From: Bacteroidota bacterium
GTDB taxonomy: Bacteria; Bacteroidota; Bacteroidia; Flavobacteriales; Flavobacteriaceae
Length of the DNA: 64,000 nt
Assembly: GCA_024279425.1 (NCBI GenBank)
Contig: JAJRRO010000051.1
Location: 1-64,000, forward strand
Direction of reading: 5' to 3'
The notes under the pieces are model-generated. The model made no database searches and had not been told where the DNA came from. It saw nothing but the letters and a program-made list of their open reading frames with translations. The position numbers and the translations under genes are program-made. Below are positions 16,287 to 36,003 of this stretch, piece by piece (position 1 is the first letter of the stretch; each line of letters starts with the position of its first letter).

Positions 16287-16290
16287 TGTT

Positions 16291-19088: not shown

Positions 19089-19736
19089 TTACTTCCTCCC
19101 CATTAAATTGATCAAGAATCCCGTACAGAAAATTATAAATGAAATTAGGCTGATGGGCGGTAATCCTCCAGGCCAGGTATCAAATTTCGTCCAACCGGTA
19201 TACCCTAAAAAAAACAAATGAATTCCAATAAAAAATAGGATATACATAATGCTCTTTTTGGAAGTTATCCGCACAATGATTTTGTTATCCAAATTTAGAT
19301 TTGACTTAAAACTTTTATAGTAAATCCATAAAAAGACAAAACTTACCACCCCTCCGAGTAAGCATAAACCGCCTCTTGCAGATAATGTGCCTCCCTCTGT
19401 AAAAAAAGCTGGGTAATAGGACGGTATCAATATGGCTAAACTCATAATCAAATGGGCAAATGCATAGGCAAATCCCGTGATTCCCAAGGACTTTCTGGTG
19501 TCTAATAATTTCTTGGGAATCTGTATTCCCATATGCTCCAAAGGACTTAAAGAGTAATTAAGGGTCAATAAAAAAAAGGATGCCAGAGAAATGCCTTTGT
19601 TAAAAATAAATATGGGTAAATCTGCCCAAGGAACAGTCCCAAATACATTATATCTCAACACGGCATAACCAAAAGCCAGCACTGTGGTAATTAGAATTAT
19701 TCTTACCGAATAACGCTTTAAGGATATCTCGATCAT
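19089..19736 (-). CDS. ferric-reductase-like transmembrane protein
   Basis: This 215-residue protein has about six hydrophobic segments. DTRKSLGITGFAYAFAHLIMS and FFIGIHLFFLGYTGW carry the spaced His residues that hold b-haem in ferric-reductase-like/MsrQ-type membrane proteins. It starts two bases after the PHP hydrolase stop and is the last gene of the long minus-strand locus. An electron-transfer or methionine-sulfoxide-repair role is possible; no MsrP-like partner was seen. Confidence 0.65.
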   Translation of the reverse strand: MIEISLKRYSVRIILITTVLAFGYAVLRYNVFGTVPWADLPIFIFNKGISLASFFLLTLNYSLSPLEHMGIQIPKKLLDTRKSLGITGFAYAFAHLIMSLAILIPSYYPAFFTEGGTLSARGGLCLLGGVVSFVFLWIYYKSFKSNLNLDNKIIVRITSKKSIMYILFFIGIHLFFLGYTGWTKFDTWPGGLPPISLISFIIFCTGFLINLMGRK

Positions 19737-19738
19737 TT

Positions 19739-20824
19739 CTATTTATCTAATTTCAAAAAAATGGGTTGCGTCCACGCAAAAAATCGTTCACTTCCCGAAG
19801 GCAGGGCTCTAGAACAAGTTATCTTTGCCCTAACATATGTAGCTCCCTTAGGAATTCTAAATTTGGCCGAACTTCCTTTTGACTTTTGAAGAATCTTTCC
19901 GCGATCAGAAATAAATTCAATATGGAACCCCTCCTCCTCTTTTTCCGTTTTATATCCCACCAACAAAGGGCTTTCCAACGCTTTAAACGATTTTTCAATG
20001 TCAACCTCTATTTTATAAACCTTTTTGTTTTTTCTTATCTTTTTAAGCATAACACCGCTTGAAGAATAAAAGTCGCTATTTGCCATGGCATTCGTAATGG
20101 CATTGGGTGATAATTCATTACTTTGAACCATAACCCAACCACGACCAGGATTACTTTCATCAATGGCCCACTTTTTAAAAAAATGCACATCATCTGATGA
20201 TATGCCATATATCTTCCTCCCGGCTGTCAACAACGAATCCCACTTCTTTTCCATCGAGGCATGTTTTTTATTTCCCCAATTATAAACATCCGGGTGACCG
20301 TTGTACAGCTCTAACATATGCAATCGTTCAACTTTTTGAATATCTGCAGCAGATACGCCCGATTGCCAATTGGGGTGATTTAAAATCGGCATTCCGTTGG
20401 CACTTCGAATAGAATCAGTATGCTTTTGCATTAAATAGATCTTAAAGTTTTCGAAGCTATTGTCATCTACCGTAGACAGCTCGTTCGGATATTGTGGAAA
20501 AACTTCTCTGGTGATGTTCATCGCAGTGGTATGAATATGTTTATAATCAGATACCTCTTCTCCAGGAATCAAGATAAAATCCTTTCGTCTCTTTTTTGGA
20601 AGATTAACGCTTTTAGGATCTATAAATTGATTGTGTTCAGTAAGGATCAAGAAATTATAATCCCTTTGCAAATACCATAAGGCAACAGTATCAGGATGTG
20701 TATCTGCATGACCACTTAAGGTTGTATGTGAATGTGTATTTCCTTTAAACCATTTTAGCTTTTTTCCTTGGGATTGCATCTGCATTGCGGTTAAAAGCAG
20801 AATCAAGAAAACAATGTTTTTCAT
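19739..20824 (-). CDS. PHP-domain metallohydrolase, secreted (CehA/McbA-like)
   Basis: The 361-residue protein has a signal peptide (NIVFLILLLTAMQMQSQ) and a PHP core: KGNTHSHTTLSGHADTHP (first metal His pair), FLILTEHNQFI (third His), LILNHPNWQ, and ISSDDVHFFK. PHP hydrolases of the CehA/McbA group are trinuclear metal phosphoesterases or ester hydrolases. The C-terminal 100 residues look like a small beta domain ending in SGSERFFAWTQPIFL, commonly attached in this group. It is an internal member of the minus-strand locus, and the locus contains a second PHP protein fused to membrane helices at 26-27.5 kb. Confidence 0.82.
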   Translation of the reverse strand: MKNIVFLILLLTAMQMQSQGKKLKWFKGNTHSHTTLSGHADTHPDTVALWYLQRDYNFLILTEHNQFIDPKSVNLPKKRRKDFILIPGEEVSDYKHIHTTAMNITREVFPQYPNELSTVDDNSFENFKIYLMQKHTDSIRSANGMPILNHPNWQSGVSAADIQKVERLHMLELYNGHPDVYNWGNKKHASMEKKWDSLLTAGRKIYGISSDDVHFFKKWAIDESNPGRGWVMVQSNELSPNAITNAMANSDFYSSSGVMLKKIRKNKKVYKIEVDIEKSFKALESPLLVGYKTEKEEEGFHIEFISDRGKILQKSKGSSAKFRIPKGATYVRAKITCSRALPSGSERFFAWTQPIFLKLDK

Positions 20825-20860
20825 ATCAATTTAAATTTATCCATTTGGCGTGGTTGATCT

Positions 20861-22555
20861 CTACTTTATTTTATACCCATAGATGACAGAACTGGAATCG
20901 GCTCCCCAGTTTCCTGAATTGTAGTGGCCGCTTGACCCTTCTACACCCACGGCAATATCAATTATTTTTCCAATCTGCATCAAACGGTTTCCTTCTACAT
21001 CTTTAAGAAATCCTTCCATTTCAGCCCTTACCTCAACTTCTGAACCATCCGGTGAGAGGGCAATGATAATATCATCACTGGTTCCTTCGGTATAATCCTC
21101 CATCGTATATCTTGAACCATTTCTATGAACGTACTCCATTTTATAGTGGTCTCTTTTGTTCCCATTTTTATCGGTGTGGGAGTAATAGGATGGTCCTAGT
21201 TTTAAGTTTCCGCTCAAGACCTCTTTTTCAGCTCCAACACCTGTAAATCCGAAAAATGTTTTCACAAACTTATTTCCAATAAACTCAAATTGAGCCTCAC
21301 TATCATCCCCTATGGGAATTCCGAAATAACAATTATCGTCGCGAGTCGGTGGGTACCCTGTTAAGGGATTGGAATCAACATCGATATAGGTATACCAATA
21401 ATATCTTCCTTTACTCCCGGTTCTACCATGGGCTCCTGAGACCCTAGTGTAAAAATAAATATATGTACTATCGTTGGTAACCTTGAATTCCAAGAGGTCC
21501 GTATCGGGGTTTTCAAAAAGATACGAAATATAGTCCTCCTTTATGTCACCAACGCCCTTAATGTTTCTCCAATCCCGAAAGTTTCCATCAATTGTAACCT
21601 CATTCGATTTTTGAGTGGTCTGTGAGGTTTTATTTTTCATATCTATGAAAATATCACTTCCGTCCAGACTGATTTCATTTGAATAACTCCCTTTAAATGT
21701 CAAGGAAAGCATTTTGCCTTCTCCCTGTTGACTCGCCCCTGAAATCAAATCGGGTCGAAAGGCCTCTCTAGTACTTATTATTTCCGATTTTTGAATATTA
21801 CATCTTGCTATTTCAAGCTTTTTATCATTTATATAGGCATACAATATCAATAATGAACTGGCGTGCTGATGCTCAATTTCGAATTGGACGTCGTTTAATA
21901 GACCTCCATTTTTAGCACTTAAATCCAGTGGAAGGAAAAGTTGTTCCTTCTTGGTTTGAACAGTTTCAGAGCACGGGTCAAGTTGAAATAATGTTCTCTT
22001 GAAAGGGTCAAAATGAATCTTGTCAAACGGTATTTGTAATAAGGGAAAATCGGCAGAATCCCATGGGCCCGAAGGAACAAATTTTTCATTTTCATCAAAA
22101 AACCCTACCGGTTTCTCATTAAGTTTTGAAGAATAGGCGCCGACGACGATCCTATTGTTTTCTTCATATACTCTTCCGTCCCATATGGGTATGGCCTTGT
22201 TACTTGAGGTATAGGTACTATTTTTTTCTACATAGAAATCTAAATTATACAGCTTATCCGATTTTGTTAATTGAATGTTTCCATTGGTATTTGTAACCGC
22301 ATCTTTTGGAACGCTAATCGTGAAATAAGGAACTGAGCCTATCATTTCATTATAAGGGTATACGCCGAACGTCTTTTGAAAAACTTCATGGGAGGGGTCA
22401 CCATTAGCATCCAAATACTTGGATTGGATAACCTCCATAGTGTTTTTTTGAAATACCCTAGATTCGTTCAATACACCAATCAAAGTATTTTCTTGTGCAA
22501 TTACATGGCTAATGACAAAAAACAATTGACAATAGAGAAATATTTTTTTTTGCAT
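20861..22555 (-). CDS. secreted protein of unknown function with CBM9-like beta domain
   Basis: This 564-residue protein was not recognised. It has a signal peptide (FFVISHVIAQE). Residues from about 325 (EVTIDGNFRDWRNIKGVGD) through IDVDSNPLTGYP resemble the DOMON/CBM9-like beta-sandwich used for carbohydrate or haem binding. The N-terminal part (IPIWDGRVYEENNRIVVG, FDPFKRTLFQLDPCSE) is beta-rich with no known motif. Position inside the glycan locus suggests surface glycan handling. That is inference. Confidence 0.55.
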   Translation of the reverse strand: MQKKIFLYCQLFFVISHVIAQENTLIGVLNESRVFQKNTMEVIQSKYLDANGDPSHEVFQKTFGVYPYNEMIGSVPYFTISVPKDAVTNTNGNIQLTKSDKLYNLDFYVEKNSTYTSSNKAIPIWDGRVYEENNRIVVGAYSSKLNEKPVGFFDENEKFVPSGPWDSADFPLLQIPFDKIHFDPFKRTLFQLDPCSETVQTKKEQLFLPLDLSAKNGGLLNDVQFEIEHQHASSLLILYAYINDKKLEIARCNIQKSEIISTREAFRPDLISGASQQGEGKMLSLTFKGSYSNEISLDGSDIFIDMKNKTSQTTQKSNEVTIDGNFRDWRNIKGVGDIKEDYISYLFENPDTDLLEFKVTNDSTYIYFYTRVSGAHGRTGSKGRYYWYTYIDVDSNPLTGYPPTRDDNCYFGIPIGDDSEAQFEFIGNKFVKTFFGFTGVGAEKEVLSGNLKLGPSYYSHTDKNGNKRDHYKMEYVHRNGSRYTMEDYTEGTSDDIIIALSPDGSEVEVRAEMEGFLKDVEGNRLMQIGKIIDIAVGVEGSSGHYNSGNWGADSSSVIYGYKIK

Positions 22556-22628
22556 TTATTTTTTTGATTTTCACTACAATTAAACCTCTTTTATACTCAT
22601 CCAGAAACCCTATCCATTCAAAACTCGA

Positions 22629-23894
22629 CTAAAATCTATTTCGGTCTCCCAGCAATTCTCCGTGCGTATTTATTGCAATTAACGCAAGTAAGGCTATAAC
22701 TATGAGAATAGCCAAAAGATATACAAACCATTTTTTGGTATCTATCTTGCCAGAGGTTGTTGCGGCCTCATAAAATTTTCCTTTTTTAAATAGTACAAAA
22801 ATCAAAATAATATTCAATAGATATAAATGATGATTTATGACCATTTTCCCAGCGAAGAACCCTGTTACAACATAACTCATTACTATGTATGAACTTAAAT
22901 AAACAAATAAGAATAGGGCAATGTCCTTCTTTTTGTAGGCACCATCCCTTAATTTCCAAAAAAGTAATATTGCCACAATCAGTAATATCACGGCTACGGT
23001 CGTAGTACTGATAAATGCCACTGATTCTATATTTGAAATTTCACCCAAACGTTTCAGAAGATGCTCATATGCCAGAGTTTCGCGATATACGATCAAGGGA
23101 ATAAAAACAGCAATGACGAATAGAGCAATCCTATTGACCCATGTCTTTGGTTTCGTCTCATCAATAGGCCACTTTGAACTATATACTCCGTAGGCCATTC
23201 CTGAACCGCCAAAAAAGCCGATACTGTATTCCATGACATTCCACATGTTAAAGGGTATTTCCATTACATTGCCCACTACTTGTAAAAAATTACCAAAGGC
23301 AAAGCCAAATCCACCACCAAGTGCTGAATAGATAGCAACTCGGATTGCGGAGTTTCTTTTTTGGCGTGCCATATACAATAGCATGGCCAAACCAGCACCC
23401 AAGATTATCGCCCAGGCCTCTGACCGTGGGGGTGTCATTTTGAATCTAATTTGTTCTATAAGGAAGAAATAGGCAATCAATCCGCCAGCGACCATCTCCG
23501 CTATTAGCGTCCCCCATTTTACTTTGTTCTTTTGAGTTGAATCTAGTACAAGACCCACTAGTCCCCCGCCTAATAATCCAAATAGAGCACCGATGACAAA
23601 AAGCATACTTAAGCCATAAAAGGCATTGATAAAATTATTAGCATGGCCATAACCCACTACCTTGCCATAACTTATCATACCTCCGGCTCCCCAACCTATG
23701 GCCGATGCCAAGGCTACCAAAACCATTTTATTATACCAATCTTTTCTTTGTGAAACCATGACCAATGCCAACCCTCCTATCGCACCAGCCCATGCCGCAC
23801 CTTGTTCATGTCCAAATTGACCGCGAATTGCCCACGCCGTAGCCAATGACATAGCAACTACCAAAATTCCAATGCCTTGCTTTTTAATATTCAT
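22629..23894 (-). CDS. polytopic inner-membrane protein of unknown function
   Basis: The 421-residue protein has about 11 hydrophobic helices. The N-terminus contains ATAWAIRGQFGHEQGAAWAG, with Gly-rich helices such as IGALFGLLGGGLVGLVL. No transporter signature was recognised. Conserved-looking polar residues inside helices (R, H, E near residues 24-31) suggest a channel, transporter or membrane enzyme. It lies between the GH31 and the CBM9-like gene on the same strand and could move a product of the locus across the inner membrane. The cargo is unknown. Confidence 0.6.
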   Translation of the reverse strand: MNIKKQGIGILVVAMSLATAWAIRGQFGHEQGAAWAGAIGGLALVMVSQRKDWYNKMVLVALASAIGWGAGGMISYGKVVGYGHANNFINAFYGLSMLFVIGALFGLLGGGLVGLVLDSTQKNKVKWGTLIAEMVAGGLIAYFFLIEQIRFKMTPPRSEAWAIILGAGLAMLLYMARQKRNSAIRVAIYSALGGGFGFAFGNFLQVVGNVMEIPFNMWNVMEYSIGFFGGSGMAYGVYSSKWPIDETKPKTWVNRIALFVIAVFIPLIVYRETLAYEHLLKRLGEISNIESVAFISTTTVAVILLIVAILLFWKLRDGAYKKKDIALFLFVYLSSYIVMSYVVTGFFAGKMVINHHLYLLNIILIFVLFKKGKFYEAATTSGKIDTKKWFVYLLAILIVIALLALIAINTHGELLGDRNRF

Positions 23895-24278
23895 TTCATC
23901 TTTACGTTTTAGTTAAAAATATCTCGGTTAGTCCATTTATAATCTCCAACGATACTTAGCCGAAACATTCTATTATTCGATTTGAAAGGAGCCCCCATTT
24001 CACATATGCCTTGTATATTCCTTTGTACACTTGGAAACACTCAAAACTAAACTATTATGAAGTATTGGATTTCGTGAATCTTACCTGAAATGCATGAATA
24101 GTTTTCTATTTGATTAGGAATGAAAGCTTCCCTACACTTCGCCTTATAGTCAACCGTTGCCCATGAAGCTATCGATGATACGTTGATGGGGTCAAATGAC
24201 CTTCTTTGAATATCTTTAAAATTCTTCAGATAACAAATTTGGTATCGGCTGTAATTTTTACTGGATAAGACTATTCTT
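23895..24278. other. 384-base gap without a recognisable gene
   Basis: Between the GH31 stop and the polytopic membrane protein start there is no convincing coding sequence on either strand. A minus-strand frame of about 60 codons after the GH31 stop lacks a start codon and shows no family resemblance. The gap is long for this otherwise tight locus, so a promoter for the distal four genes may lie here. A small inverted repeat CCCAT...ATGGG is seen near 24160-24190. No -33/-7 pair was recognised. Confidence 0.45.
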
Positions 24279-26051
24279 TTAGAACGAGATTAGGTAAGTG
24301 CCTTTTTTATAATCATCCTTGGTTTTGATTATTATTTTTTCCTTCTTTCCATCGTAGGTCCAAGATGTGGAGACGAGTTTTTGACCATCTAAAATGATTT
24401 CCTTTGGAGGTATCGCGGAATGGATTCTCAGAATATGGGGTATTTTTGTCCCTTCGAGGGTTATCCTTAACTCTTGAGCATTCTTTTGGTAGGCAATTGT
24501 GGTCCCTTCTTTGGTATCTGGTTTATAGTATTTAAAACTGTTGTTCTTGTTCGGGTACACTAAAATGGTGGTAAATCCGTCTGAAGTCCTATCTCCCAGG
24601 CTTGTATAATTTCGTTTTATATCCGTTGGTACAATGGCCCCTTCCCTTATATATACCGGGAATTCTTCCAATGAAAACTCCCTTTCAAATGCTATAGGGC
24701 CTTTGAGCACATCCTTATCGTCGAAGAAATAACGCCATTTCCCTTCAGGGAGTGAAATTTTCCGAGTCTTGGTATCTTTATAGATTGGTGCAATGAGAAA
24801 ATCATCCCCGAACATATAATGGTATTTGCCTTCCTTCAAAGGAGTCTGCAATCTTCGCCCTCCCTCATGGGCAGTTACTACATAATGATACATGTAGGGC
24901 ACCAGTTCGGTATGCAACCAAGCATATTTTCGTATGAGATCTAATTCTTCTTTGGTTCTTTTCCAAAGGCGCCTTTCTCCATGTCCGCCGTTGAGGAAAA
25001 GGCCACAAAAGGTCGAGAATTGTGTCCAACGTATGTATAATCTGGGGGGAATGGTCTTTCCGGAAAACCCGGCGATATCCGAACCGATAATATTATAGCC
25101 CAATTCTGCACTTTCCAAAATATTGTCTATAGCCGATTCAAAGCCTTGAATTCCATCTAGTGCTATATCCTTTTTTGCCCCCTCGCCCCGTCCTATCATT
25201 TCGTCAGTGACCCACTTGTGCTCTTGATCTCCCACCCAATTTACTGGTGAGGCATCTATGGGTGCAAAACCTTCAGGGTGAAAGCCGCGATCTATTGAGC
25301 GCGAAAGAGTCACAAATTCGAGGTTTTGAGTCAGTCCATATTGGTATTCCTCTCGATAATAATGATCCATATAAGTCCTTGCAGACATTAACCCATTTGC
25401 TGTCCTCTTGTAAAAGAACGGTACTTTACCCACTTGATGCCAAAAAAGAGTCGCCGTACCATCCATTTTCCAACCATCTATTCCCAGGTCAAATACGCGT
25501 TGCTGAAGGCCATGCCACCATTGCATAGCATCGGGATTTGAATAATCGATAAATCCACCCCTGCCTTTCCACCATGTATTCGGTTCGCTTGATTGTGCTA
25601 AAAACCTCTTTTCCATGGCATCGTTATACCAGGCCTCATCATCTTTGATTTTGGTGTCCTTGCTAAAACTATTAACCATTGAAGTCATCCATAACACCAC
25701 TCGATAGTCGTTGTCTTCCAATTTTTTGAACCAAACATCCGGTTGTTTATAGCGACTGGTGTCTATAGCAAAATCATTGTATCTCAATGACCAAGGGCTA
25801 TCCAATAAAATAGTGCGTACTGGGATATCATATTCTTTATATCCGGCCAATAGCTCATCTACATATTCGGAAGTATTCACATCATCTTCCCACAACCAAC
25901 ACTCCAACGCCCAAGCTGGTGTAAGTGGAGGATTGCCGTGTCGTTGCGAATTAAAAGGGATACCCCAGAAGGGCAGCAACCAACAGAAATAAGTGATTAT
26001 CGATACTATTGCCAATGACCAAAGTGTAATCTTAAGCGCTCTTTTTTTCAT
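24279..26051 (-). CDS. GH31 family alpha-glycosidase, membrane-anchored
   Basis: The 590-residue protein opens with one hydrophobic segment (LWSLAIVSIITYFCWLL), a signal anchor. GIDGWKMDGT has the GH31 nucleophile Asp (197), VNWVGDQEHKW the likely acid/base Asp (275), and NIIGSDIAGFSG (321-331) and YIRWTQFSTFCGLFLNGGHGERRLW are typical subsite blocks. The family acts on alpha-glucosides, xylosides, galactosides or sulfoquinovosides. The N-terminal beta-sandwich of many members is much reduced. Its start overlaps the stop of the PHP membrane protein by four bases (ATGA), so the two are coupled. Substrate not predictable from motifs seen. Confidence 0.88.
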   Translation of the reverse strand: MKKRALKITLWSLAIVSIITYFCWLLPFWGIPFNSQRHGNPPLTPAWALECWLWEDDVNTSEYVDELLAGYKEYDIPVRTILLDSPWSLRYNDFAIDTSRYKQPDVWFKKLEDNDYRVVLWMTSMVNSFSKDTKIKDDEAWYNDAMEKRFLAQSSEPNTWWKGRGGFIDYSNPDAMQWWHGLQQRVFDLGIDGWKMDGTATLFWHQVGKVPFFYKRTANGLMSARTYMDHYYREEYQYGLTQNLEFVTLSRSIDRGFHPEGFAPIDASPVNWVGDQEHKWVTDEMIGRGEGAKKDIALDGIQGFESAIDNILESAELGYNIIGSDIAGFSGKTIPPRLYIRWTQFSTFCGLFLNGGHGERRLWKRTKEELDLIRKYAWLHTELVPYMYHYVVTAHEGGRRLQTPLKEGKYHYMFGDDFLIAPIYKDTKTRKISLPEGKWRYFFDDKDVLKGPIAFEREFSLEEFPVYIREGAIVPTDIKRNYTSLGDRTSDGFTTILVYPNKNNSFKYYKPDTKEGTTIAYQKNAQELRITLEGTKIPHILRIHSAIPPKEIILDGQKLVSTSWTYDGKKEKIIIKTKDDYKKGTYLISF

Positions 26052-27493
26052 GATGGAGATATTGCTTTTTTCTGCTTGAAAAATCTAAAATATGATATGA
26101 TCAAAACATACAAAAGAAACACAAATCCTATTGGCCACAAAAGTGAGGAATATTCAGCATATACCTCGCTATACCCTTTGACCCTCTCACCACTTACATA
26201 ATATACAAGCGCCAATACAATCATGAACAATGCGCTCCCTACTGCACATAGTGGAAGTATTATTTTCCTCCCCCCGGCTACTCCCTTTTTCCTATTCCAG
26301 ATATATTGAAAAAGCGAGAGCCAAAAAACCCAAGACAGCACCTGAAACACATTCAGTGTTCTAAAATACTGAATAACCGTCCAAGAGGGCCGTATCCATA
26401 GATGATTATCGCTATAAAAAGGGCGGTCTTTGTACATCAGAACTTTTATTTTTTCTTGAGGGCCATTTTTTATGATGTCCAGAATCGCCAACTCCTTGGA
26501 AATAGAATTCATTGTGTTCCAATCGGGTATTTCTAAAGCATTATAGAGCGAACAAACCCTGCCGTATCCATGAAAATCAAGCCCCCCAATCATCACGAGG
26601 CTGTTATCCTTGCAGAATTTCTTCAGCTCTTCAAAGGCTTTCCGATCATAATAGAGATCCTTACCTGCATTTTCTATTTCAAAGCCATCGACTCCCAACA
26701 TTGTATAGAATTCCTTCTCTTTTCCTTTACCATCGAACCAATGGTTAATAATTACAGCTCCTTGATGCTTGTGTACCGAATCAATTACCGCTTTATCTGC
26801 CATTCCCTTTGTCTCAAATTTGCCATTGAGACCCAACAAGCTCATATGGTTACTGCCGGAATGTTCTTGCCCTACCATAATCAATGGGGCAGTAGGGAAT
26901 TTTCCTTGTCTTTGTTTTTGAGCAAACTCCAAGCTTTTTTTATAATTGGCATGGTCGGTAATAAAAAAAGCATCAAAACCATTTCCCCTGTGCCATTTCC
27001 ACATATTTTCTTGGGAGATCAGCCCATCATGACTGAATTCAGTATGGGCATGGGTTGTAACTAAAACACCATCACTTGAATTGTTTACAATGGTGTTGTT
27101 GGGCAAGGGAACGAATAAAATCAGTACAAAGAAGGCAAAGCAGATACCAATCAATAAAGGTAAGTTGGCTATTTTATTCAAAACCCTTTTTTTTCTATCC
27201 ACCCTCCCCCTGAAGATTTCGACCCAACCAAAAACGCAGTAAAAAGCCAAGATCCAGAACAGTGCCAAGGGTAATTCCCGCAAAGCGTAAATAGATCGAT
27301 TAAAAAATAGCAAGGGCCCTAAAATTGGTTCAAAAACTATTCGCCACACCGATATTTTCAAACCAAAATCCGTTGCTGGTCGAAGTGTTAGAGCGTCTTC
27401 AAAATATATTTGAAATGGAAAAAGTGCGGCTAATAGAACAATAGAAAGAATGGGAACAACAACGCAAAATTTTTGTATACCTCCTTTGTTCAT
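26048..27493 (-). CDS. membrane protein with embedded PHP metallohydrolase domain
   Basis: The 481-residue protein has about three N-terminal helices (LSIVLLAALFPFQIYF, PLALFWILAFYCVFGW, LLIGICFAFFVLILFV), then a PHP domain (about 145-330: TTHAHTEFSHDGLIS, FFITDHANYK, GAVIINHWFDG, LVMIGGLDFHGYG), then three more helices (FQVLSWVFWLSLFQYIW, IILPLCAVGSALFMIVLALVYYV, LLWPIGFVFLLYVLIISYF). The His/Asp ligands for a metal cluster are visible. The catalytic domain probably faces the periplasm. The arrangement suggests hydrolysis of a phosphoester or lipid-linked substrate at the membrane. The gene overlaps GH31 by four bases and lies 23 bases after lyase copy 2. Confidence 0.75.
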   Translation of the reverse strand: MNKGGIQKFCVVVPILSIVLLAALFPFQIYFEDALTLRPATDFGLKISVWRIVFEPILGPLLFFNRSIYALRELPLALFWILAFYCVFGWVEIFRGRVDRKKRVLNKIANLPLLIGICFAFFVLILFVPLPNNTIVNNSSDGVLVTTHAHTEFSHDGLISQENMWKWHRGNGFDAFFITDHANYKKSLEFAQKQRQGKFPTAPLIMVGQEHSGSNHMSLLGLNGKFETKGMADKAVIDSVHKHQGAVIINHWFDGKGKEKEFYTMLGVDGFEIENAGKDLYYDRKAFEELKKFCKDNSLVMIGGLDFHGYGRVCSLYNALEIPDWNTMNSISKELAILDIIKNGPQEKIKVLMYKDRPFYSDNHLWIRPSWTVIQYFRTLNVFQVLSWVFWLSLFQYIWNRKKGVAGGRKIILPLCAVGSALFMIVLALVYYVSGERVKGYSEVYAEYSSLLWPIGFVFLLYVLIISYFRFFKQKKAISPS

Positions 27494-27516
27494 TTAAATG
27501 ATTTATCTGATTTAAT

Positions 27517-28440
27517 TTATAAAATGGAATTATAATCCCTACTATATTCAAACTGATTTAAATAACGTTTGACCTCATTGCGTTTCGATTCATCAAACTT
27601 ATGAAGCGGTTGGGCCATATGGTCAGAACAAATACCCATAATAGACAAGGCACATTTTATAGCCTTTATACTCTTCGTGGCCGAATCGCCAACATTGTAA
27701 ATGGTAGTATGCATTTTCAACAAACTATTGCGTAGTATTGCTATTCTTTCCAAATCTTTGGACATAGAGGCTTCATATAAATCAACAAACAATCTAGGGA
27801 AAAAGTTTGCCCCTCCAGCAACTGCTCCTTGGCCACCTTTCGTAATTGTTTCCGATAAGTAAAGTTCCGCTCCCACGATTATCGAAAAGTCTGGAGAATC
27901 CTTAAATTCCTCTATAAGCGCATATACCTGTGAAATATCATCTGAACTTTCCTTAACCCCGATTGCACCCAAATCCTTGGCTTTTCTAGCCATTTTGACC
28001 GATAAATTTAGTTTGGTACAGCTGGGAATATTGTACAAAAGGAATGGTAAAGTCAACTTTGGCACTAAATTCTCTAGATAATCCATCATTTCCTGTTCTG
28101 AGATCGGAAAATAATATGGAGGTGCAATAACAAGGGCGTCAGCTCCTGCTTTTTTTGAATAGTCGGCTATTTCCAATGTAGCTTCTAAGGAGGTGTCCGT
28201 AATGCCCACAAGTACCGGAACTCTATGATTCACTATTTCGCAAGCTTCTTTTATCAACTGTTTTCTTAAAGGATAACTCAAACTTGGCCCTTCACCATTG
28301 GTTCCCACTAGAAATACACCATGAACACCACCCTCCAAAACATGCTCAATCAGATTCTTCAGTCCATGACTATCTAATTCTTTATTTTCCAACAGTGGGG
28401 TAACTAGGGGAGGTATAATACCTCTAAGGGGTAATTTCAT
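27517..28440 (-). CDS. DapA/NanA family lyase, copy 2
   Basis: The 307-residue protein shows GTNGEGPSLS, YNIPSCTKLN (Tyr) and IGVKESSDD (Schiff-base Lys), so the catalytic machinery is intact. It resembles copy 1 throughout (for example SVLVGITDTSLEA versus PVLVGITDTSFEG in the same register). This copy is embedded in the SusC/SusD locus, directly downstream of the BNR sialidase-like gene, whereas copy 1 is with a symporter. That neighbourhood favours a nonulosonic or other keto-acid sugar aldolase. The 195-base gap before it may hold a separate promoter. Confidence 0.88.
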   Translation of the reverse strand: MKLPLRGIIPPLVTPLLENKELDSHGLKNLIEHVLEGGVHGVFLVGTNGEGPSLSYPLRKQLIKEACEIVNHRVPVLVGITDTSLEATLEIADYSKKAGADALVIAPPYYFPISEQEMMDYLENLVPKLTLPFLLYNIPSCTKLNLSVKMARKAKDLGAIGVKESSDDISQVYALIEEFKDSPDFSIIVGAELYLSETITKGGQGAVAGGANFFPRLFVDLYEASMSKDLERIAILRNSLLKMHTTIYNVGDSATKSIKAIKCALSIMGICSDHMAQPLHKFDESKRNEVKRYLNQFEYSRDYNSIL

Positions 28441-28635
28441 ATGTACAATTTTATATTTACGTCAAAATAAAGTCAAATTCAATCATCACACCACCAAAAT
28501 ATTGGTTCAAACACATCATATTTTAACCCTAAAAAGCCTGGGCATCTCAAAAAGTTTTAAGACCTCTAGCACTTTGAAGAGCGATAAAATGCGACCCAAA
28601 TACAATTGCTCGATACCTGTCTGAAAAAAATCCTA

Positions 28636-29859
28636 TTACATTTTTTTACGATTACTCGCCTTAATCCACTTCGAAGGAAAAGCTACATGCTTTATGGTCT
28701 TACTTTTCTTAATATGATGCGAATACGTAATATGTATCTGCCCGTCATTAGATTGGATCATTGAAGGATAAGAAAATGAACCTATTTTGGTCTCGTCTTT
28801 TTCCAAATATCTTTTCCAAGGCCAAGTCTTACCTTCATCTTCTGAAAGGTTTACCGCCAAATTATGCCGACCTTCCTCAGTATCGTTATAGACCATGATC
28901 CAATCTCCATTTTTAAGTTTAATGGTCTCGATACTGGCACCAGGATTGGGGATTTCCATTTTTTCCGATGTGCTCCAACTATAGCCCATGTCCTTTGATG
29001 TACTTACCAAAACCCTTCCCGGGGCATCACCATTGTCCCGCATAAATGCCACGAGTGAACCATCTTCTTTTTGAACGATACTGGGCTGTATATTTCCGTA
29101 GCCAACTATGGGTAAACTGGGTGACCAAGTTTTACCTTGGTCGTCTGAAATACCAACTAATGACATATTGAACCCGTCAGAATATAAAGGCAGTATAATT
29201 CGGCCATTCGACAACACCGTTGGGTGTATTCGGGTCATCCAGCCGGTCTCTTTCTTTTTCGGTTCCTTGGCAGACTCCCATATCATTTTTTCGTAGCGGG
29301 GTGCATATTCTGCCCAAGCCAAGTTACGCGGCGACATTGATTCAAATTTTTCTTTGATGGTATTCTCAAATTTAGAATCGGGTTTTAGCAAGATTATTTC
29401 CTGCCAATCCCAGTTCGGGGCATCATCTTCCAAGTAATCAGAGGACGTCCTATATTTTAGAATGGAACTTTCCCATCTGGCCGCCTGGACCACAATCCAA
29501 TACAGATATAGTTTCTGATTGACGTCTATAAACAACACAGGATTACAATCTGGGTGATTGGGAGTGTCGGCGAGTACAAAGGTTTCGCTCCAATTTGATT
29601 CTCCTTTTTTGAGTCTGGTGCCCCTTATGAGTACATCGTTTGCTGTGCGTTCCCCTGACCCCTGGAACCAGCAGGCCAATAAGTCTCCATTAGGTAGCTC
29701 TACAATAGAACTACCATGTACGTGTTGTCCTTGGGGAGGGAAGATATGTTCCGAGTTCACACCTACTTTTTGCCCTGATAACGGCGTGCAAAAAAAACAA
29801 TATAGCACCAGAATTACAAATTTCTTCACATACGTCTTTATCATGCTAATTCTCTTCAT
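28636..29859 (-). CDS. BNR-repeat sialidase-like secreted protein (BNR_2), copy 1
   Basis: The 407-residue protein has a signal peptide (FVILVLYCFFCTPLSGQ) after either of two Met starts. It is a six-bladed-propeller-type protein with Asp-boxes SDDQGKTWSPS and SEDEGKTW, and the BNR_2 opening HVHGSSIVELPNGDLLACWFQGSGE plus HPDCNPVLF. These proteins are usually annotated exo-alpha-sialidase. However, no FRIP motif of GH33 is visible, so another glycosidase specificity is possible. It is cotranscribed with susCD across an attenuator-like hairpin. Confidence 0.78.
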   Translation of the reverse strand: MKRISMIKTYVKKFVILVLYCFFCTPLSGQKVGVNSEHIFPPQGQHVHGSSIVELPNGDLLACWFQGSGERTANDVLIRGTRLKKGESNWSETFVLADTPNHPDCNPVLFIDVNQKLYLYWIVVQAARWESSILKYRTSSDYLEDDAPNWDWQEIILLKPDSKFENTIKEKFESMSPRNLAWAEYAPRYEKMIWESAKEPKKKETGWMTRIHPTVLSNGRIILPLYSDGFNMSLVGISDDQGKTWSPSLPIVGYGNIQPSIVQKEDGSLVAFMRDNGDAPGRVLVSTSKDMGYSWSTSEKMEIPNPGASIETIKLKNGDWIMVYNDTEEGRHNLAVNLSEDEGKTWPWKRYLEKDETKIGSFSYPSMIQSNDGQIHITYSHHIKKSKTIKHVAFPSKWIKASNRKKM

Positions 29860-29879
29860 TTATATGCAAACCAGATATA

Positions 29880-29908
29880 AAAATAGCTTTCATAATGAAA
29901 GCTATTTT
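29880..29908 (-). terminator. attenuator-type hairpin between susD and the BNR gene
   Basis: AAAATAGCTTTCAT (29880-29893) and ATGAAAGCTATTTT (29895-29908) are perfect 14-base arms around a single base. On the minus strand the hairpin is followed by TTTTATATC. Being inside the locus just after susD, it can partly terminate transcription or stabilise the susCD message, keeping the binding/import pair more abundant than the enzymes downstream. Confidence 0.8.
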
Positions 29909-29929
29909 ATTCTTCAACTATACTCTTTT

Positions 29930-31591
29930 TTAGTACGGCTTTCCAGTTCCCTGCAACACCCACATTTTCGACCATGCGCTATTATTACTGGTGTCATTTC
30001 CTTTAAACTCTGTAGGTTGCAACTTTTCAATTGCTGCCCCGGCATTTTCTGGATTTAACGATATTTCACTGTCGAAGTGGTAGTAAAATCGAAGTGGTAG
30101 GGCTTGCCTTTTTCCTGACTCCCCTGTTTGTAGATCAGGTAAACCGGTTCTTCTGTAATCAAACCAAGATTCCGCAGCAGCTGACCAACTGGCTATCCAT
30201 TTTTGTTCTATGATACTCTCTAAACCTGTATATGGTGCGCCACCAATATAATCACCAAAATCATCACCAACTCCCCATGTATTGAAGGATTGCTGTATTC
30301 CATCGGCATAATGATCTTCGGCATTTCCCAGTGCCCAACCCTTCAATGCAGCTTCGGACAAAATAAAATGGACTTCGGCAGCAGACATGATTCTCATTAA
30401 CAATAAATCTCCTGAAGACTCTTTGTATATATCATTTAATTGAGAGGCATGAGGGTTAAATACCCCTTGATCTAAATTGGGGTTTAAATTGTACTGGGAC
30501 GCCGCAAAAACTGATGGAGGAATACCCACATACTCGGGGTCAAAGTCTACCCCCACGGACCAACTGTCCATATAGTCATCAACAATATCCTGGGAAATTT
30601 TTCGTACACCATTTACGATTTCATCTACTCCCGTACCTGCTGTCAGCTCTAAGGGCGTTTCAATTTTATTCGCCCAAACGCCCAATCTGGGATCATTCAA
30701 TCCCTTAAGAACATTTACCAGTGTTGCACACATTTTAATTCTCATGTAACCACCGCTGGGACTTTTATCAAAAACTGTATTATTAGGCCATGAATCTGAA
30801 GGTGAATTGCCAACATAACTTATATTAGCATCATCTGAAGTATCCAAAATCAACGGATAATTACTTGGGTTAGCTGTAATTTTACCTATTCCCGCTCCTG
30901 CTATTGTTGGATCCTTTTCTGATAATCGCATATAATAGCGAAGTGCCAAGGAATTGGCAAACTTTCTCCATTTAGAAGCGTCTCCATTATATAGAACATC
31001 TTGGGCCGTAACAATATTTTCGTAAGAACCATTGTCTTTGGATAATAGCGAATTGGCCGTTTCCAAATCAGCAAGAATCCCCATATAAATATTTTCCTGA
31101 CTATCATATACGGGCTTAAAATATTCCAAACCAGATTCTGCCTTTAAAGCCTGTGAATAAGGAGCATCTCCCCAAAGATCCGTAATCAAACCAAAGGTAT
31201 AGGCTTTCAAGACCAAGGCAACACCTTGATGGAATTCAAGTCCTTCATCCAATGCTTTTTGATAGAAAGCATCATTAGTTCTTAAAATACCATAATAATT
31301 GGACCAACTATTGGAGGTATTGTCCCAGTCGTAGTCATTATGCCCGCTAGACCAACCATCTTTTTGGGTATGTTGCATAACACCCGCAATATTACCGAAA
31401 CCTAAGCTTACTACCGTCTGGCCGATACCCGTTTCTATTGTTGGTAATAATAAATTAAGGTCTGCAGTTTGAGGGTCAACGCCATTCGGATTGATATTTA
31501 TTTCATCCAAATCTTCGCAAGAAGTAACCAAAGCAAATACCGCGGCTAAAAAAATTATAAAACTATTTTTTCTTTTGCACATAATCTTCAT
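29930..31591 (-). CDS. SusD/RagB family outer-membrane lipoprotein
   Basis: The 553-residue protein carries a lipobox (VFALVTSCEDLDEIN) and the SusD-like_2 opening NINPNGVDPQTADLNLLLPTIE, then TPR-type helices (SALVLKAYTFGLITDLWGDAPYSQAL) and a C-terminal WFDYRRTGLPDL block. It binds glycan at the cell surface as the lid of the SusC channel. It starts three bases after the SusC stop and is followed by a hairpin. Substrate cannot be read from SusD sequence alone. Confidence 0.95.
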   Translation of the reverse strand: MKIMCKRKNSFIIFLAAVFALVTSCEDLDEININPNGVDPQTADLNLLLPTIETGIGQTVVSLGFGNIAGVMQHTQKDGWSSGHNDYDWDNTSNSWSNYYGILRTNDAFYQKALDEGLEFHQGVALVLKAYTFGLITDLWGDAPYSQALKAESGLEYFKPVYDSQENIYMGILADLETANSLLSKDNGSYENIVTAQDVLYNGDASKWRKFANSLALRYYMRLSEKDPTIAGAGIGKITANPSNYPLILDTSDDANISYVGNSPSDSWPNNTVFDKSPSGGYMRIKMCATLVNVLKGLNDPRLGVWANKIETPLELTAGTGVDEIVNGVRKISQDIVDDYMDSWSVGVDFDPEYVGIPPSVFAASQYNLNPNLDQGVFNPHASQLNDIYKESSGDLLLMRIMSAAEVHFILSEAALKGWALGNAEDHYADGIQQSFNTWGVGDDFGDYIGGAPYTGLESIIEQKWIASWSAAAESWFDYRRTGLPDLQTGESGKRQALPLRFYYHFDSEISLNPENAGAAIEKLQPTEFKGNDTSNNSAWSKMWVLQGTGKPY

Positions 31592-31594
31592 TTT

Positions 31595-34500
31595 TTAAAA
31601 AGTAAATCCTATTTTAAATCCAATTGGAACGACCCATGGATTTACGTTATATCTTTCGACTCCTTGAGAGAACCCTCCATTGCTCTCTGCCTGGAATGCT
31701 CGTTCAGGATCCACACCAAAACTGGAATCCTTGGTCCATACCATAATATTGCGGCTGTAGATAGAGAAATTAACTTCATCGACACCAATTGTTTTGCAAA
31801 AATTATCAGAAGCTCTATAGTTCAGTGCTATTTCCCTTAATTTAATATAATCTGCATCAAATAAATTGGCACCACCAATATCCCATGGATAACTTACTAT
31901 ATACGGTAAAAAGGTAGTTCCCTCATTACCCAGGTTCTCTCGATCCAAGATGAAATTTCCATTAGCATCATGTTCTCCCGTCACACCCGGTGCAAACGTA
32001 CCATCAAAAACCGTGACACCACTAAAACCTTCAGGAAACCCACCATATTCCGGTGTTGGCCCCCCAACGGGTCTCAAACGATCCCCCAACAATAACTCGT
32101 CTGCATTTTCAACTACCCAATCGCGAAGTTCCTGGCTCGGAGCACCGCCCAAATCACCCGGATGAACCAATTCATCTAACCAAGTCTGGGTATTTGCACC
32201 CTCGGTCTGATAGCGATAGGTCTGTGATACATATTGGCCACCAGACCGCCAGTCAAAGGTCATGTTCAATGAAAAATTCTTATACGAAATCGAAGATTGT
32301 AAACCCATGATAAAATCAGGATTGTAATTTCCAACCTTAGAATATTCCTCTTCACCTTCCCATTCCGCATCTAAACCAGAACCAAGTATTGGGTATCCAA
32401 AATAAGGAGAGCTTTCATCAGTCACTCTTCTTATTTTTCGTGAATACAGGTTACCCACTATTCCATCATGTCCCTGAGCACTATTTTTCACATACCCTAT
32501 AGATTTAACCCTGGCACTATCCCAAAATTGAATAAAATCGACCTCTTCAGCCAAATCTAATATTACGGTTTCATTTTTGGTGAAATTCACATTCAGATCC
32601 CAATTCCAGTTCTTTGTCCTTATTGGGGTTACTCCCAGTGAAAGTTCCAAACCTTCACTTTGAAGCAATCCGGTATTAACATTTATCCTGCTAAAACCCG
32701 ATGAAATTGCTAATGGAACAGCCAGTATTTGATTTTTATTATCTACCTTATAGTAGGTTCCTTCAAAACGGAATCTATTGGAAAATAATTTAAGATCAAT
32801 TCCAAACTCGGTTGAAGTTGCTTTTTCAGATTCAAGATTAGATGTCAACAAATTACTGGATACTCCTAATCTAGTGGCATCGTCCCATTGCCCTGCATCT
32901 TGATATGCCGCATTCAGTTGATATGGATCGGTATCGTTCCCGACTTGTGCCCAACCACCCCGGAATTTCAGCATATTGACATTTTCACCCATATTAAACA
33001 GTTCATTTACCAAAATACTCAGTGATGCAGACGGATAAAAATAGGATCGATTTGCTCCTGGTAAAGTACTGGACCAATCATTTCTGGCAGTGATATCTAA
33101 ATACAGCATATCCTTATATCCTAGGTTAGCCAATCCATATGCACTATATATGACTTTTTCATTTCGCCCATTTCGGTAATCCAGTGCCCCGGAATTTATA
33201 TTTTGTACCGTGAATAAATTTGGCACCACCAATCCTGAACCTGTTTTAGATGAATTGCTAATAAATGAACCTATACTTTTTAAAGCATTTCCACCAACAG
33301 AAGTTGTTAGAGTAAAATCTGTCCAATCCTTTGAGTAGGTTGCAAGAACATCAAAATTACGTTCAGATCCTGCACTACTTATAATTCCGTAAGCCCCATT
33401 GTTTGGTTCCCTAGTATATCCTGGCGCTATTTTTGATTCCCTGATTTCATCAGTTTTGTTCAAGGTATAGCGGCCCATAACATTAAATGATGGTGACAAT
33501 TCTAAATTGGCAACTAGGTTACCATAGATTCGATATCTATTAAAACTATTATTTATCCCGTGAGCTATAAAATATGGGTTCTCATAGTTTTCAGAAATTC
33601 TAAGAACCCCATTAGGTGTATCATAATCCTTGAGTTTCAGTATATCCACATTTGTCGGACTTGTAATCGCGTGTTGTAGCGGATTTGCACCCCTATTTGA
33701 GGCCGGTCTGTTATCGGCCCCTGAATTCGCAAAATTGATATTTGTACTTACCGTTAACTTATCCGATACTTTGGAAGAGGCAGCCAATGAAATACTGTTT
33801 TTATGCAAATCAGAATTTGGTATTAAACCTGAGTGGCTTGTATTGGAATAGCCTAGCCTGTAGTTTACAATATCTGTACTGCTTGAAATAGCTGCATTGT
33901 ACGTTGTTGTTAAAGCATAGTCATTTAAAAAGTTATTGACATTGTCGGGATAAGAAACAACCTCAGTAGGAATTTTTCGGCCATTGGCATCCAATGGCGC
34001 ATCCCATTGTACTGCCCAATATCCTTTATCATTTTCAGGTCCACTCCCAGCAGGTTCAGATCCTGTGATATCAGGTAGAACACCACCTCCAACATCCTCA
34101 GGTCTAAAAGAGAAGAATCCGCTTGAAAACTTGGTTTGAGTATTTACAAATTTGGATGGAATATCATAAACCGAATTGGTTGAAAAGGAAACTTTCATGC
34201 CTTCATTCTCCTTAGCTTTTTTCGTAGTAATCAACACTACTCCATTACCGGCCCTTGTTCCATACAAGGCAGCTGCACTTGGACCCTTTAATATAACGAC
34301 ATCTTCTATACTTTCCGGATCGAGGTCAGAAATGGCATTTCCATAATCCACCCTATTGTCACTTCCAAAACCACCTATGTTATTAACCGTACTTATTATA
34401 GGTACACCATCAACTACAAATAACGGTTGATTATCTGTACTTAGCGATGTAGCTCCCCTAATGACCATATTGACCGATGATCCAGTTCCTCCAGTAGAAC

Positions 34501-34996
34501 TAATGGTAACCCCGGAAACTTTACCGGCCATCGAGTTCAAAACATTTTCATTGACCACCCGAGTGAGTTCTTCACCACCAACCTTTGCCACGGAATAACC
34601 TAAAGACTTTTCTTCCCTTCGTATTCCCAAAGCTGTAACCACTACTTCATCCAGCGCCTGGGCACTAGTAGCCAACGAAACATTTATTATCGATTGCCCA
34701 TTAACAGCAACCTCTTTAGTCTCAAATCCGATATACGAAAATACCAATACCCCCTCATCAGGCACATTAATACTATAGTTGCCATCGAAATCGGCACTGA
34801 CCCCCTGTGTTGTTCCTTTTAGTATAATACTTACCCCTGGCAAAGGCACACCATCTTCCGATGAGGTAACTGTTCCAGATACCAGTACTTTGTTGTTCTG
34901 GGCAAGTACAGTAGAACTGACCAATAGTAACATCATAAAAAGGAGGGTAGCTAAGGATTGCCCTATTTTATTTTTAATACAATAATTCGTATTCAT
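31595..34996 (-). CDS. SusC/RagA family TonB-dependent outer-membrane receptor
   Basis: The 1133-residue protein has a signal peptide (LATLLFMMLLLVSSTVLAQ), a CarboxypepD_reg-like domain (VSGTVTSSEDGVPLPGVSIILKGT), a TonB-box region (DEVVVTALGIRREEKSLGYSV), a plug with the SusC signature (VNENVLNSMAGKVSGVTI, PLFVVDGVPI) and a long beta barrel ending in the aromatic FKIGFTF. It imports oligosaccharides with TonB energy. There is no N-terminal STN domain, so it does not belong to the ECF-sigma/anti-sigma signalling class. susC and susD are three bases apart; the PKD lipoprotein gene precedes it. Confidence 0.97.
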   Translation of the reverse strand: MNTNYCIKNKIGQSLATLLFMMLLLVSSTVLAQNNKVLVSGTVTSSEDGVPLPGVSIILKGTTQGVSADFDGNYSINVPDEGVLVFSYIGFETKEVAVNGQSIINVSLATSAQALDEVVVTALGIRREEKSLGYSVAKVGGEELTRVVNENVLNSMAGKVSGVTISSTGGTGSSVNMVIRGATSLSTDNQPLFVVDGVPIISTVNNIGGFGSDNRVDYGNAISDLDPESIEDVVILKGPSAAALYGTRAGNGVVLITTKKAKENEGMKVSFSTNSVYDIPSKFVNTQTKFSSGFFSFRPEDVGGGVLPDITGSEPAGSGPENDKGYWAVQWDAPLDANGRKIPTEVVSYPDNVNNFLNDYALTTTYNAAISSSTDIVNYRLGYSNTSHSGLIPNSDLHKNSISLAASSKVSDKLTVSTNINFANSGADNRPASNRGANPLQHAITSPTNVDILKLKDYDTPNGVLRISENYENPYFIAHGINNSFNRYRIYGNLVANLELSPSFNVMGRYTLNKTDEIRESKIAPGYTREPNNGAYGIISSAGSERNFDVLATYSKDWTDFTLTTSVGGNALKSIGSFISNSSKTGSGLVVPNLFTVQNINSGALDYRNGRNEKVIYSAYGLANLGYKDMLYLDITARNDWSSTLPGANRSYFYPSASLSILVNELFNMGENVNMLKFRGGWAQVGNDTDPYQLNAAYQDAGQWDDATRLGVSSNLLTSNLESEKATSTEFGIDLKLFSNRFRFEGTYYKVDNKNQILAVPLAISSGFSRINVNTGLLQSEGLELSLGVTPIRTKNWNWDLNVNFTKNETVILDLAEEVDFIQFWDSARVKSIGYVKNSAQGHDGIVGNLYSRKIRRVTDESSPYFGYPILGSGLDAEWEGEEEYSKVGNYNPDFIMGLQSSISYKNFSLNMTFDWRSGGQYVSQTYRYQTEGANTQTWLDELVHPGDLGGAPSQELRDWVVENADELLLGDRLRPVGGPTPEYGGFPEGFSGVTVFDGTFAPGVTGEHDANGNFILDRENLGNEGTTFLPYIVSYPWDIGGANLFDADYIKLREIALNYRASDNFCKTIGVDEVNFSIYSRNIMVWTKDSSFGVDPERAFQAESNGGFSQGVERYNVNPWVVPIGFKIGFTF

Positions 34997-35049
34997 ATTA
35001 ATATTTTAAGTTGGTTATCATTTTTTGATTGAGCATTTTACGACGGCAT

Positions 35050-36003
35050 TTACTTAACCACTTCGAATGTAAGTATCAAAGCATGGGTATTTATCCCGAT
35101 TATCGAGGCGTCCTGCCCTGCTGCCATAAACATCGCAATTCTCATGGAATCATCATTGATCTCTTGGACTATGACTTTACTTTGAAAGTCTAAAAAGCCA
35201 ACAAATTCAGTACCTGAAAAATCAAGCGTGGTGACATCATTAAACGTTAGTGCTCCTCCAGGGCCGTAAACTGAAGACGTTGTGAAATCTTCATTCTCGA
35301 CATAGGTAAACGTAGCATTTGCCTCAGGGGAATACAGTCCGGTACAAAGTCCAAAATCTATACCGTTACTATTTACGATTCCTGCTCCTCCAGTAGTGAC
35401 AAACTGATAAACTATCCCTCCGAAGGCCGCTCCATCCGCCTTTACGTCATGTCCATAGCTTCCGTCAAAATGAAACGTATATTCATCATCATAAACCTCT
35501 CCCATACCCAAACCTGCTCCAAATATACCCGCAGGTAATGGAACCGGAGTACCTGGAGATACAGAAAGCTCAGCATCCGCATTAGCGAAATAATCAAAAT
35601 CGGAATGATTACCTGAAAGCTTCCAGGTCTTCCCATTTACAGCAGTAGGCCCGCCAGTTAACAATACGTAGGGTGTAAGTGCAATTGCCAATTCAGTTTC
35701 TGATGTAACAATTGCCCCGCTGGGACCAGTTGCAGTTAAGGTAGCGCTATAGTACCCCCCATCCGTATAATTATGTACTGGATTTTGTTCGTTACTTGTT
35801 TGTCCATCCCCAAAATCCCAAGACCAACTTACAGCACTATGTGTCAAGCCCTGAAAGGCAACCTTCTTGTCATCAACACTATGGGAAATAACCGCCGAAA
35901 GTGGGGAAATCTCTTTATCAATCTCATCTGAACTACAAGATGACAATATCAGCAGCAAGGAAAACATCATTCCTGAAAATATTTTTACGTTTATTTTATC
36001 CAT
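35050..36003 (-). CDS. PKD-domain surface lipoprotein, probable glycan-binding protein
   Basis: The 317-residue protein has a lipoprotein signal (LLLILSSCSSDEIDKE) followed by a PKD domain (about 35-110: WSWDFGDGQTSNEQNPVHNYTDGGYYSATLT). The rest is beta-rich with no recognised motif (TWKLSGNHSDFDYF, DEYTFHFDGSYGHDV), resembling surface glycan-binding proteins that precede or follow SusCD. It is the first gene of the minus-strand locus, 53 bases before susC, unlike the usual SusE/F position after susD. Assignment as SusE-like is inference. Confidence 0.72.
   Translation of the reverse strand: MDKINVKIFSGMMFSLLLILSSCSSDEIDKEISPLSAVISHSVDDKKVAFQGLTHSAVSWSWDFGDGQTSNEQNPVHNYTDGGYYSATLTATGPSGAIVTSETELAIALTPYVLLTGGPTAVNGKTWKLSGNHSDFDYFANADAELSVSPGTPVPLPAGIFGAGLGMGEVYDDEYTFHFDGSYGHDVKADGAAFGGIVYQFVTTGGAGIVNSNGIDFGLCTGLYSPEANATFTYVENEDFTTSSVYGPGGALTFNDVTTLDFSGTEFVGFLDFQSKVIVQEINDDSMRIAMFMAAGQDASIIGINTHALILTFEVVK

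Follow-up and report, generated by a model that had tools for sequence, protein, structure and literature searches.

A stretch of 64,000 nucleotides from a Bacteroidota bacterium (contig JAJRRO010000051.1; hereafter the window) carries a run of 11 minus-strand genes, extending from 36003 to 19089 with all frames intact, that belongs to a conserved and apparently undescribed SusCD utilisation system. The run encodes, in order, a PKD-domain lipoprotein, a SusC-like porin, a SusD-like_2 lipoprotein, a BNR_2 propeller (BNR407), a DHDPS-fold enzyme (DHDPS1), a PHP hydrolase with hydrophobic segments on either side (PHPtm), a GH31 glycosidase, a membrane protein of 421 residues (TM421), a 564-aa protein (U564), a second PHP hydrolase (PHP1) and a small membrane protein (TM215). 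We propose, with a probability of roughly 40%, that it is the core of a SusCD-type locus for the utilisation of a glycan that is rich in acidic sugars, probably 3-deoxy-2-keto (ulosonic) sugars other than N-acetylneuraminic acid (Neu5Ac), and that bears phosphate and acyl or acetyl groups.

Why connect such a propeller with a DHDPS-fold enzyme? The strongest evidence that the two would act together is their co-occurrence in a second Bacteroidota family. Among 92 of its genomes, BNR407 homologues occur in five and the DHDPS subfamily in eight, and all five are shared (P = 1.1e-6). The two genes lie 123-360 bp apart in four of these genomes and 35.5 kb apart in the fifth. The centre genome of this family was chosen because it has the locus, which does not apply to the other four BNR407-DHDPS pairs.

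Linkage outside the source family extends to other parts. In a sample of the phylum, DHDPS1 was detected at E 1e-70 in 10 of 395 genomes, its own included, and the surroundings were examined for four (L129-L132) of the other nine. A DHDPS gene is accompanied by SSF and BNR_2 genes in L129, L130 and L131; the fourth locus (L132), where two of three scanned genes encode transposases, is uninformative. The SusD, DHDPS (compared with the window's second copy, DHDPS2) and SSF proteins of L131, a locus of the second family, are 41%, 47% and 40% identical to those of the window. L131 also contains a purple acid phosphatase, a protein with 30% identity to c1 (a protein cluster of related loci, see below) and, read by eye, the C-terminus of a SusC. 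An FG-GAP protein of L130 is 46% identical to one near the SSF gene in L017, one of the related loci described below. The most widely linked parts are SusCD, DHDPS, SSF and BNR_2; PHP, GH31 and TM421 are typical of the source lineage.

Conservation and extent of the locus

A scan with TM421 gave 93 relatives. The 80 best loci (L016-L095) were retained, and their open frames of at least 100 aa were compared with 28 window proteins. Records named Kriegella, Zobellia and Maribacter are among those with related loci. Each flank covers at most 10 kb, less where the contig ends sooner, and absences near the edges are therefore uncertain; the DHDPS1 and DHDPS2 labels denote best matches that may swap. 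SusC-like proteins were found in 53 of the 80 loci, SusD in 51, AraC regulators in 45 (some weak, at 32-38 bits) and the PKD lipoprotein in 34. PHPtm follows with 24, the ceramidase-like CER1 with 23, DHDPS1, DHDPS2 and SSF with 22 each, TM215 with 21, GDPD with 20, GH31 and BNR407 with 17 each, U564 with three and PHP1 with two. Thirty-six loci have an AraC orthologue (>250 bits); here SusC and SusD are each present in 30, the PKD lipoprotein in 27, and DHDPS1, PHPtm, SSF and CER1 in 22 each. The unusual content stressed in the original prediction is real, yet much of it is specific to the lineage, given that GH31 occurs in 13, BNR407 in five, U564 in three and PHP1 in two of these 36.

By gene order alone, an operon-like arrangement is kept across related loci. 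SusC and SusD, neighbours in the window, adjoin each other in every one of the 51 loci with both; likewise, the PKD lipoprotein adjoins SusC (34/34), SSF adjoins DHDPS2 (20/20), TM215 adjoins TM421 (21/21) and PHPtm adjoins GH31 (13/13), with DHDPS1 next to PHPtm in 16 of 17. Adjacency is looser for SusD-DHDPS1 (12/21), GH31-TM421 (6/17) and SusD-BNR407 (4/11). Across 199 genomes of the family, including its own, TM421 is present in eight (E 1e-10), PHPtm in six (E 1e-30) and GH31 in four (E 1e-60). The 198 other genomes comprise seven with TM421, five with PHPtm (four with TM421) and three with GH31 (all with both), yielding hypergeometric P values of 2.8e-6 for PHPtm-TM421, 7.8e-6 for GH31-PHPtm and 2.7e-5 for GH31-TM421 (E cut-offs differ and relatedness is uncorrected). 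The grouping is conserved beyond chance, and the conserved gene order that the original prediction proposed to look for in other Bacteroidota is seen for parts of the locus.

Individual genomes illustrate how the parts are combined. The sole same-genus genome sampled (G032) is without TM421, PHPtm and GH31 and has no DHDPS1 at E 1e-70. A smaller form in G080 comprises PhoPQ-related, PKD, SusC, SusD, DHDPS1, PHPtm, AraC and SSF genes, without GH31 and TM421. G129 has the set in two places: some 354 kb separate CER1-PKD-SusC-SusD-DHDPS1-PHPtm-GH31 from TM421, which has a further DHDPS copy and a pair of ceramidase-like matches in its vicinity. The window unites both modules. Relatives often continue DHDPS2-SSF with clusters c2, c0, c1 and c3. 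Scanning a single protein from each of c1, c2 and c3, and three of the 49 in c0, identified a regulator propeller (c1), a Gfo/Idh/MocA oxidoreductase (c2), an FG-GAP protein (c3) and purple acid phosphatases (c0).

The SusCD unit opens with the PKD lipoprotein (35050-36003, minus strand; PF18911, 48.7 bits), followed by the SusC-like TonB-dependent porin (31595-34996, minus; PF07715, plug, and PF13715, CarbopepD_reg_2) and the SusD-like_2 lipoprotein (29930-31591, minus; PF12771, 252.6 bits; PF14322, just 34 bits). A SusCD polysaccharide locus had been predicted between 19089 and 36003. It stands as a coherent, conserved system; its limits were drawn too narrowly, as associated genes reach about 14799 on one flank and 49411 on the other. 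The first flank contains the AraC-family regulator (17351-18199, plus; PF12833, 80 bits), a GDPD phosphodiesterase (18105-19046, plus; PF03009, 125.6 bits) whose listed frame overlaps AraC and whose true start is probably later, and a minus-strand pair (14799-17265) of DHDPS2 and an SSF sodium-solute symporter (14799-16286; PF00474). The other flank is a divergent set of plus-strand genes (36258-49411).

The predicted gene content was also borne out, save for the 11 helices assigned to TM421 (22629-23894, minus). The AlphaFold model of this protein, which matches no family over its cut-off, contains 13 helices of at least 17 residues (pLDDT 90, pTM 0.91). A fold search returned no solved chain at E 0.001, with TM-scores of at most 0.28 for the matches listed; the absent match is no proof of a new fold. 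U564 (20861-22555, minus), an accessory protein, matches no family, and TM215 (19089-19736, minus) has a very weak MsrQ likeness (NF003831, 16.2 bits against a cut-off of 130). TM421 to TM215 may form a transcription unit of their own, because the 384 bp before TM421 (23895-24278) are a non-coding gap without an open frame, a possible promoter region, and 92 bp of it are 74% identical to a stretch just upstream of TM421 in L025. A promoter and terminator scan gave values within one standard deviation of shuffles.

Sialidase-fold propellers and DHDPS-fold enzymes

BNR407 (28636-29859, minus; PF13088, 184 bits) is modelled as a sialidase-fold propeller (mean pLDDT 83). Among the structure matches listed, most are GH33 sialidases and the best is a sialidase (E 4.2e-18); the top five include a designed protein and one of unassigned function. 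A second BNR_2 protein, BNR360 (45360-46442, plus; PF13088, 292.1 bits), is encoded on the divergent side. The RIP motif, which supplies an arginine of the sialidase arginine triad, is absent from both, and a motif search found it in none of 28 homologues above 100 bits, some of which are perhaps partial. The corresponding position of the BNR407 family reads HGS, HAS or HSS in all 11 alignment rows covering it; two of the 13 rows lack it through truncation, and the position was fixed by a three-sequence alignment. Two fusions were identified. A 715-aa frame (L058:18433-20577) joins a BNR407 homologue (59% identity) to YdjC (58%), and an 830-aa frame (L131:4300-6792), beside DHDPS and SSF genes, joins BNR407 (40%) to a second half related to BNR360.

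Does the locus simply serve sialic acid? The sialidase fold of BNR407, NanA profile matches (under the cut-off) and nearby NagA- and NagB-like genes would be consistent with a locus for Neu5Ac or 2,7-anhydro-Neu5Ac that uses a sialidase and NanA; the original prediction spoke of a DapA/NanA lyase. However, the same genome holds a separate, probable sialic-acid operon (L103; contig C102:42000-58000) with a sialidase that has RIP, an AGE epimerase that exceeds its cut-off (648 vs 600), a NanA-like protein under that of TIGR00683 (98.6) and an 869-aa fusion of mutarotase and SSS symporter parts. Both loci have a sialidase-fold protein, a DHDPS-fold protein and an SSS/SSF transporter, but the window locus is without RIP, has no epimerase among the locus genes scanned and contains a different DHDPS subfamily, with DHDPS1 and the NanA-like protein of L103 sharing 24% identity. 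Because this probable operon exists and the BNR proteins lack the RIP motif, the sialic-acid explanation is very improbable, and the NanA and sialidase assignments are not supported.

Which reaction, then, do the DHDPS-fold proteins catalyse? DHDPS1 (27517-28440, minus; PF00701, 177 bits), an aldolase- or dehydratase-like enzyme, and DHDPS2 (16291-17265, minus) are 60% identical. Both are under the equivalog cut-offs for NanA (TIGR00683, cut-off 382; 81.7 and 91.9 bits) and DapA (TIGR00674, cut-off 206.15; 168.5 and 170.2 bits), and the position that we take to be the DapA arginine holds a C. The solved chain closest to DHDPS1 is 4xky, labelled dihydrodipicolinate synthase and presumably a Bacteroides thetaiotaomicron protein. 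YagE comes next (157 bits) and is the closest named relative, with the probable name 2-keto-3-deoxy-aldonate aldolase; YagE has the same fold, but DHDPS1 belongs to another subfamily, whose genes are linked to those of SusCD, BNR_2 and SSF. In nine genomes picked for holding parts of the locus, this subfamily is almost confined to it: of the 17 copies with at least 56% identity, 16 are at the locus and one sits on a different contig of G018. The 14 remaining copies, which are more distant (24-31%) and of which every genome has one or more, all lie away from it.

The kinship with YagE also accords with a locus for a uronate or aldonate glycan. A BNR_2 glycosidase or lyase would act on uronic-acid chains, DHDPS1 and DHDPS2 would cleave or dehydrate 2-keto-3-deoxy-aldonates, and Gfo/Idh/MocA beside SSF would supply the aldonate in relatives. 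The frequent position of c2, with its one scanned oxidoreductase, after DHDPS2-SSF fits this account, as does a very weak match of BNR407 to rhamnosidase NF052497 (20.8 bits against a cut-off of 700). However, a Pfam scan of 40 window proteins, up to position 55919, met no PL, GH88 or GH105 family, the best c2 match of the window's genome is on another contig, and sialidases predominate among the solved folds closest to BNR407. We regard uronates or aldonates as a possible but rather unlikely substrate.

Phosphoesterases, glycosidases and the divergent operon

PHPtm (26048-27493, minus; PF02811, 28.2 bits against a cut-off of 26.4) is CehA/McbA-like, though under the cut-off of NF038032 (41.5 vs 80 bits). 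PHP1 (19739-20824, minus), an accessory hydrolase of CehA/McbA type, exceeds it (93.4 bits) and has no Pfam match at E 0.01. Ten PHPtm residues, chosen from PHP motifs, are invariant in 16 of 16 aligned sequences. Searches by sequence at E 0.001 gave no solved relative for the PHPtm profile or for PHP1. The GH31 glycosidase (24279-26051, minus; PF01055, 136 bits) has a hydrophobic N-terminus, and D197 and D325, the nucleophile and acid/base aspartates by alignment to solved GH31 enzymes, are invariant in 11 of 11 aligned sequences. We considered a sulfoquinovosidase and rejected it, YihQ matches being weaker than those to many other GH31 enzymes.

Clustering near the locus was counted in nine related genomes picked for having it, with the window's own copies (two phosphatases) included and the expectation taken from uniform placement. 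Six of 33 matches to the purple acid phosphatase N-domain fall within 30 kb of the locus against 0.48 expected. These counts, the invariant PHP residues and the purple acid phosphatase of L131 lend indirect support to the original suggestion of phosphoester-bearing glycans. Two adjacent genes resembling calcineurin-like or purple acid phosphatases are located just past the divergent operon (50549-54019).

Could phosphorus itself be the object? In Flavobacterium, PusCD clusters pair SusCD-like proteins with phosphatases and, in the part of that paper covered, are without the gene set of the window (PMC8115612). Scavenging of that kind would have SusCD import organophosphates and the PHP hydrolases, GDPD and phosphatases release phosphate, with the sugar enzymes secondary; the invariant PHP residues and the phosphatase enrichment agree with it. 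The window locus differs from PusCD, as far as the covered part of the source goes, in its glycosidases, its sugar-acid catabolism and its best SusD family: PusD bears pf07980 and pf14322 (PMC8115612), whereas the window protein is placed by PF12771. Furthermore, DHDPS and SSF persist in G080 without GH31 and TM421, and carbon catabolism therefore looks constant, although PHPtm is retained in this genome as well, with a purple acid phosphatase nearby. On balance, phosphorus scavenging is distinctly unlikely as the primary role.

The divergent operon encodes CER1 (36258-37556, plus, as are all that follow; PF04734, 24.9 bits, under the cut-off of 32.1), a PhoPQ-related protein (37525-38979; PF10142, 358.7 bits), an alpha/beta hydrolase (38960-39883), a YdjC-like protein (39904-40935; PF04794, 193.3 bits), an SBF-type transporter (41088-41963; PF01758, 137.3 bits), a BD-FAE-like esterase (41969-42985; PF20434, 212 bits) and a GH92 glycosidase (43000-45336; PF07971, 500 bits). 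BNR360 follows, and then the ceramidase-like CER2 and CER3 (46443-49411; PF04734, 45.6 and 36.7 bits). PF04734 matches cluster strongly at the locus in the nine genomes (17 of 27 within 30 kb against 0.39 expected). A pattern search found no GDxSPN-type serine motif, which we take to be that of neutral ceramidases, in CER1, CER2 or CER3; an HTH motif is present in each. Because the assumed ceramidase motif is absent, we rejected ceramide or glycosphingolipid as the substrate despite the clustering, and name these proteins just hydrolases.

On the opposite side, the locus is adjoined by an amino-sugar module of plus-strand SSF, NagA-like and NagB-like genes (11279-14656), of which the latter two occupy 12913-14656 and the NagA-like protein is under its equivalog cut-off (166 vs 226). 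Beyond it are minus-strand genes for two Gfo/Idh/MocA oxidoreductases, a xylose-isomerase-like barrel, DoxX and DUF6807 (5005-10935), perhaps a separate sugar-modifying cluster.

A proposed pathway and its standing

How might the parts work together? SusCD and the PKD lipoprotein would bind glycan fragments and import them, and the BNR_2 propellers may then free the acidic sugar in the periplasm or at the membrane. GH31 and GH92 would trim alpha-linked neutral sugars; phosphate would be taken off by the PHP hydrolases, GDPD and the nearby purple acid phosphatases, and acyl groups by YdjC, the esterases and the ceramidase-like proteins. The SSF symporter would bring in the freed acid, which the cytosolic DHDPS-family enzymes would cleave to give pyruvate. 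AraC is the putative regulator of the system. The YdjC-BNR407 fusion, the NagA- and NagB-like genes, and the clustering of PF04734 proteins and phosphatases point to a glycan of acid sugars that bears phosphate, acyl and N-acetyl groups.

Several observations weigh against an ulosonic-acid glycan. BNR407 is absent from most related loci, including all but five of the 36 with an AraC orthologue, and in eight of the 80 loci a metallophosphatase-cluster gene stands between SusD and TM421 in its place, with nothing there in others. At E 1e-40, three of the eight second-family genomes with the DHDPS subfamily yield no homologue of BNR407. The BNR_2 neighbours of DHDPS-SSF in L129 and L130 share just 24-28% identity with BNR407 or BNR360. 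These two loci contain sulfatases, and phosphate therefore need not be general; the enrichment of purple acid phosphatases is modest. BNR propellers also act as rhamnosidases or lyases. The DHDPS fold spans aldolases, dehydratases and synthases, and the 2-keto-3-deoxy-aldonates on which YagE acts need not derive from ulosonic acids. The genes and their families, the conserved linkage, the two fusions, the catalytic residues kept in GH31 and PHP and the missing sialidase motif are observed; we infer the substrate, all reactions, their localisation and the order of steps.

What is new here? The locus resembles a SusCD polysaccharide utilisation locus (PUL) in its SusC-SusD pair and lipoprotein, its glycosidases, its regulator and its likely cytosolic catabolism, but adds PHP hydrolases, a DHDPS pair and a membrane protein outside known families. 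The original prediction that no such locus had been described agrees with the literature searched, in which the gene set was not found; subscription papers were largely outside that search, which makes this weak evidence of novelty. The main texts of PMC11036162, PMC11345257 and PMC10877868 contain no DHDPS, PHP, BNR, sialidase or ceramidase term; PMC11036162 mentions a GH31 outside its PULs.

A far-reaching version of the proposal would make this a system of several Bacteroidota families for glycans of 3-deoxy-D-manno-octulosonic acid (Kdo) type or of other non-sialic ulosonic acids, for instance those of the phosphorylated inner core and lipid A region of dead Gram-negative cells or the keto-sugar-acid walls of certain green algae, with the BNR_2 proteins that lack RIP as a new ketosidase family, DHDPS as its aldolase, SSF as the importer, and TM421 as a new membrane fold for transport or membrane-bound processing. 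Taken as a whole, this is speculative and unlikely. The analysis also brings out TM421 as a conserved membrane-protein family without a solved fold match. Across two Bacteroidota families, an apparently uncharacterised sialidase-fold group is tied to SusCD, to a transporter and to a dedicated DHDPS subfamily, and this tie therefore provides a concrete, testable pathway. If the substrate is indeed an ulosonic-acid glycan, it would represent an overlooked source of carbon and phosphorus.

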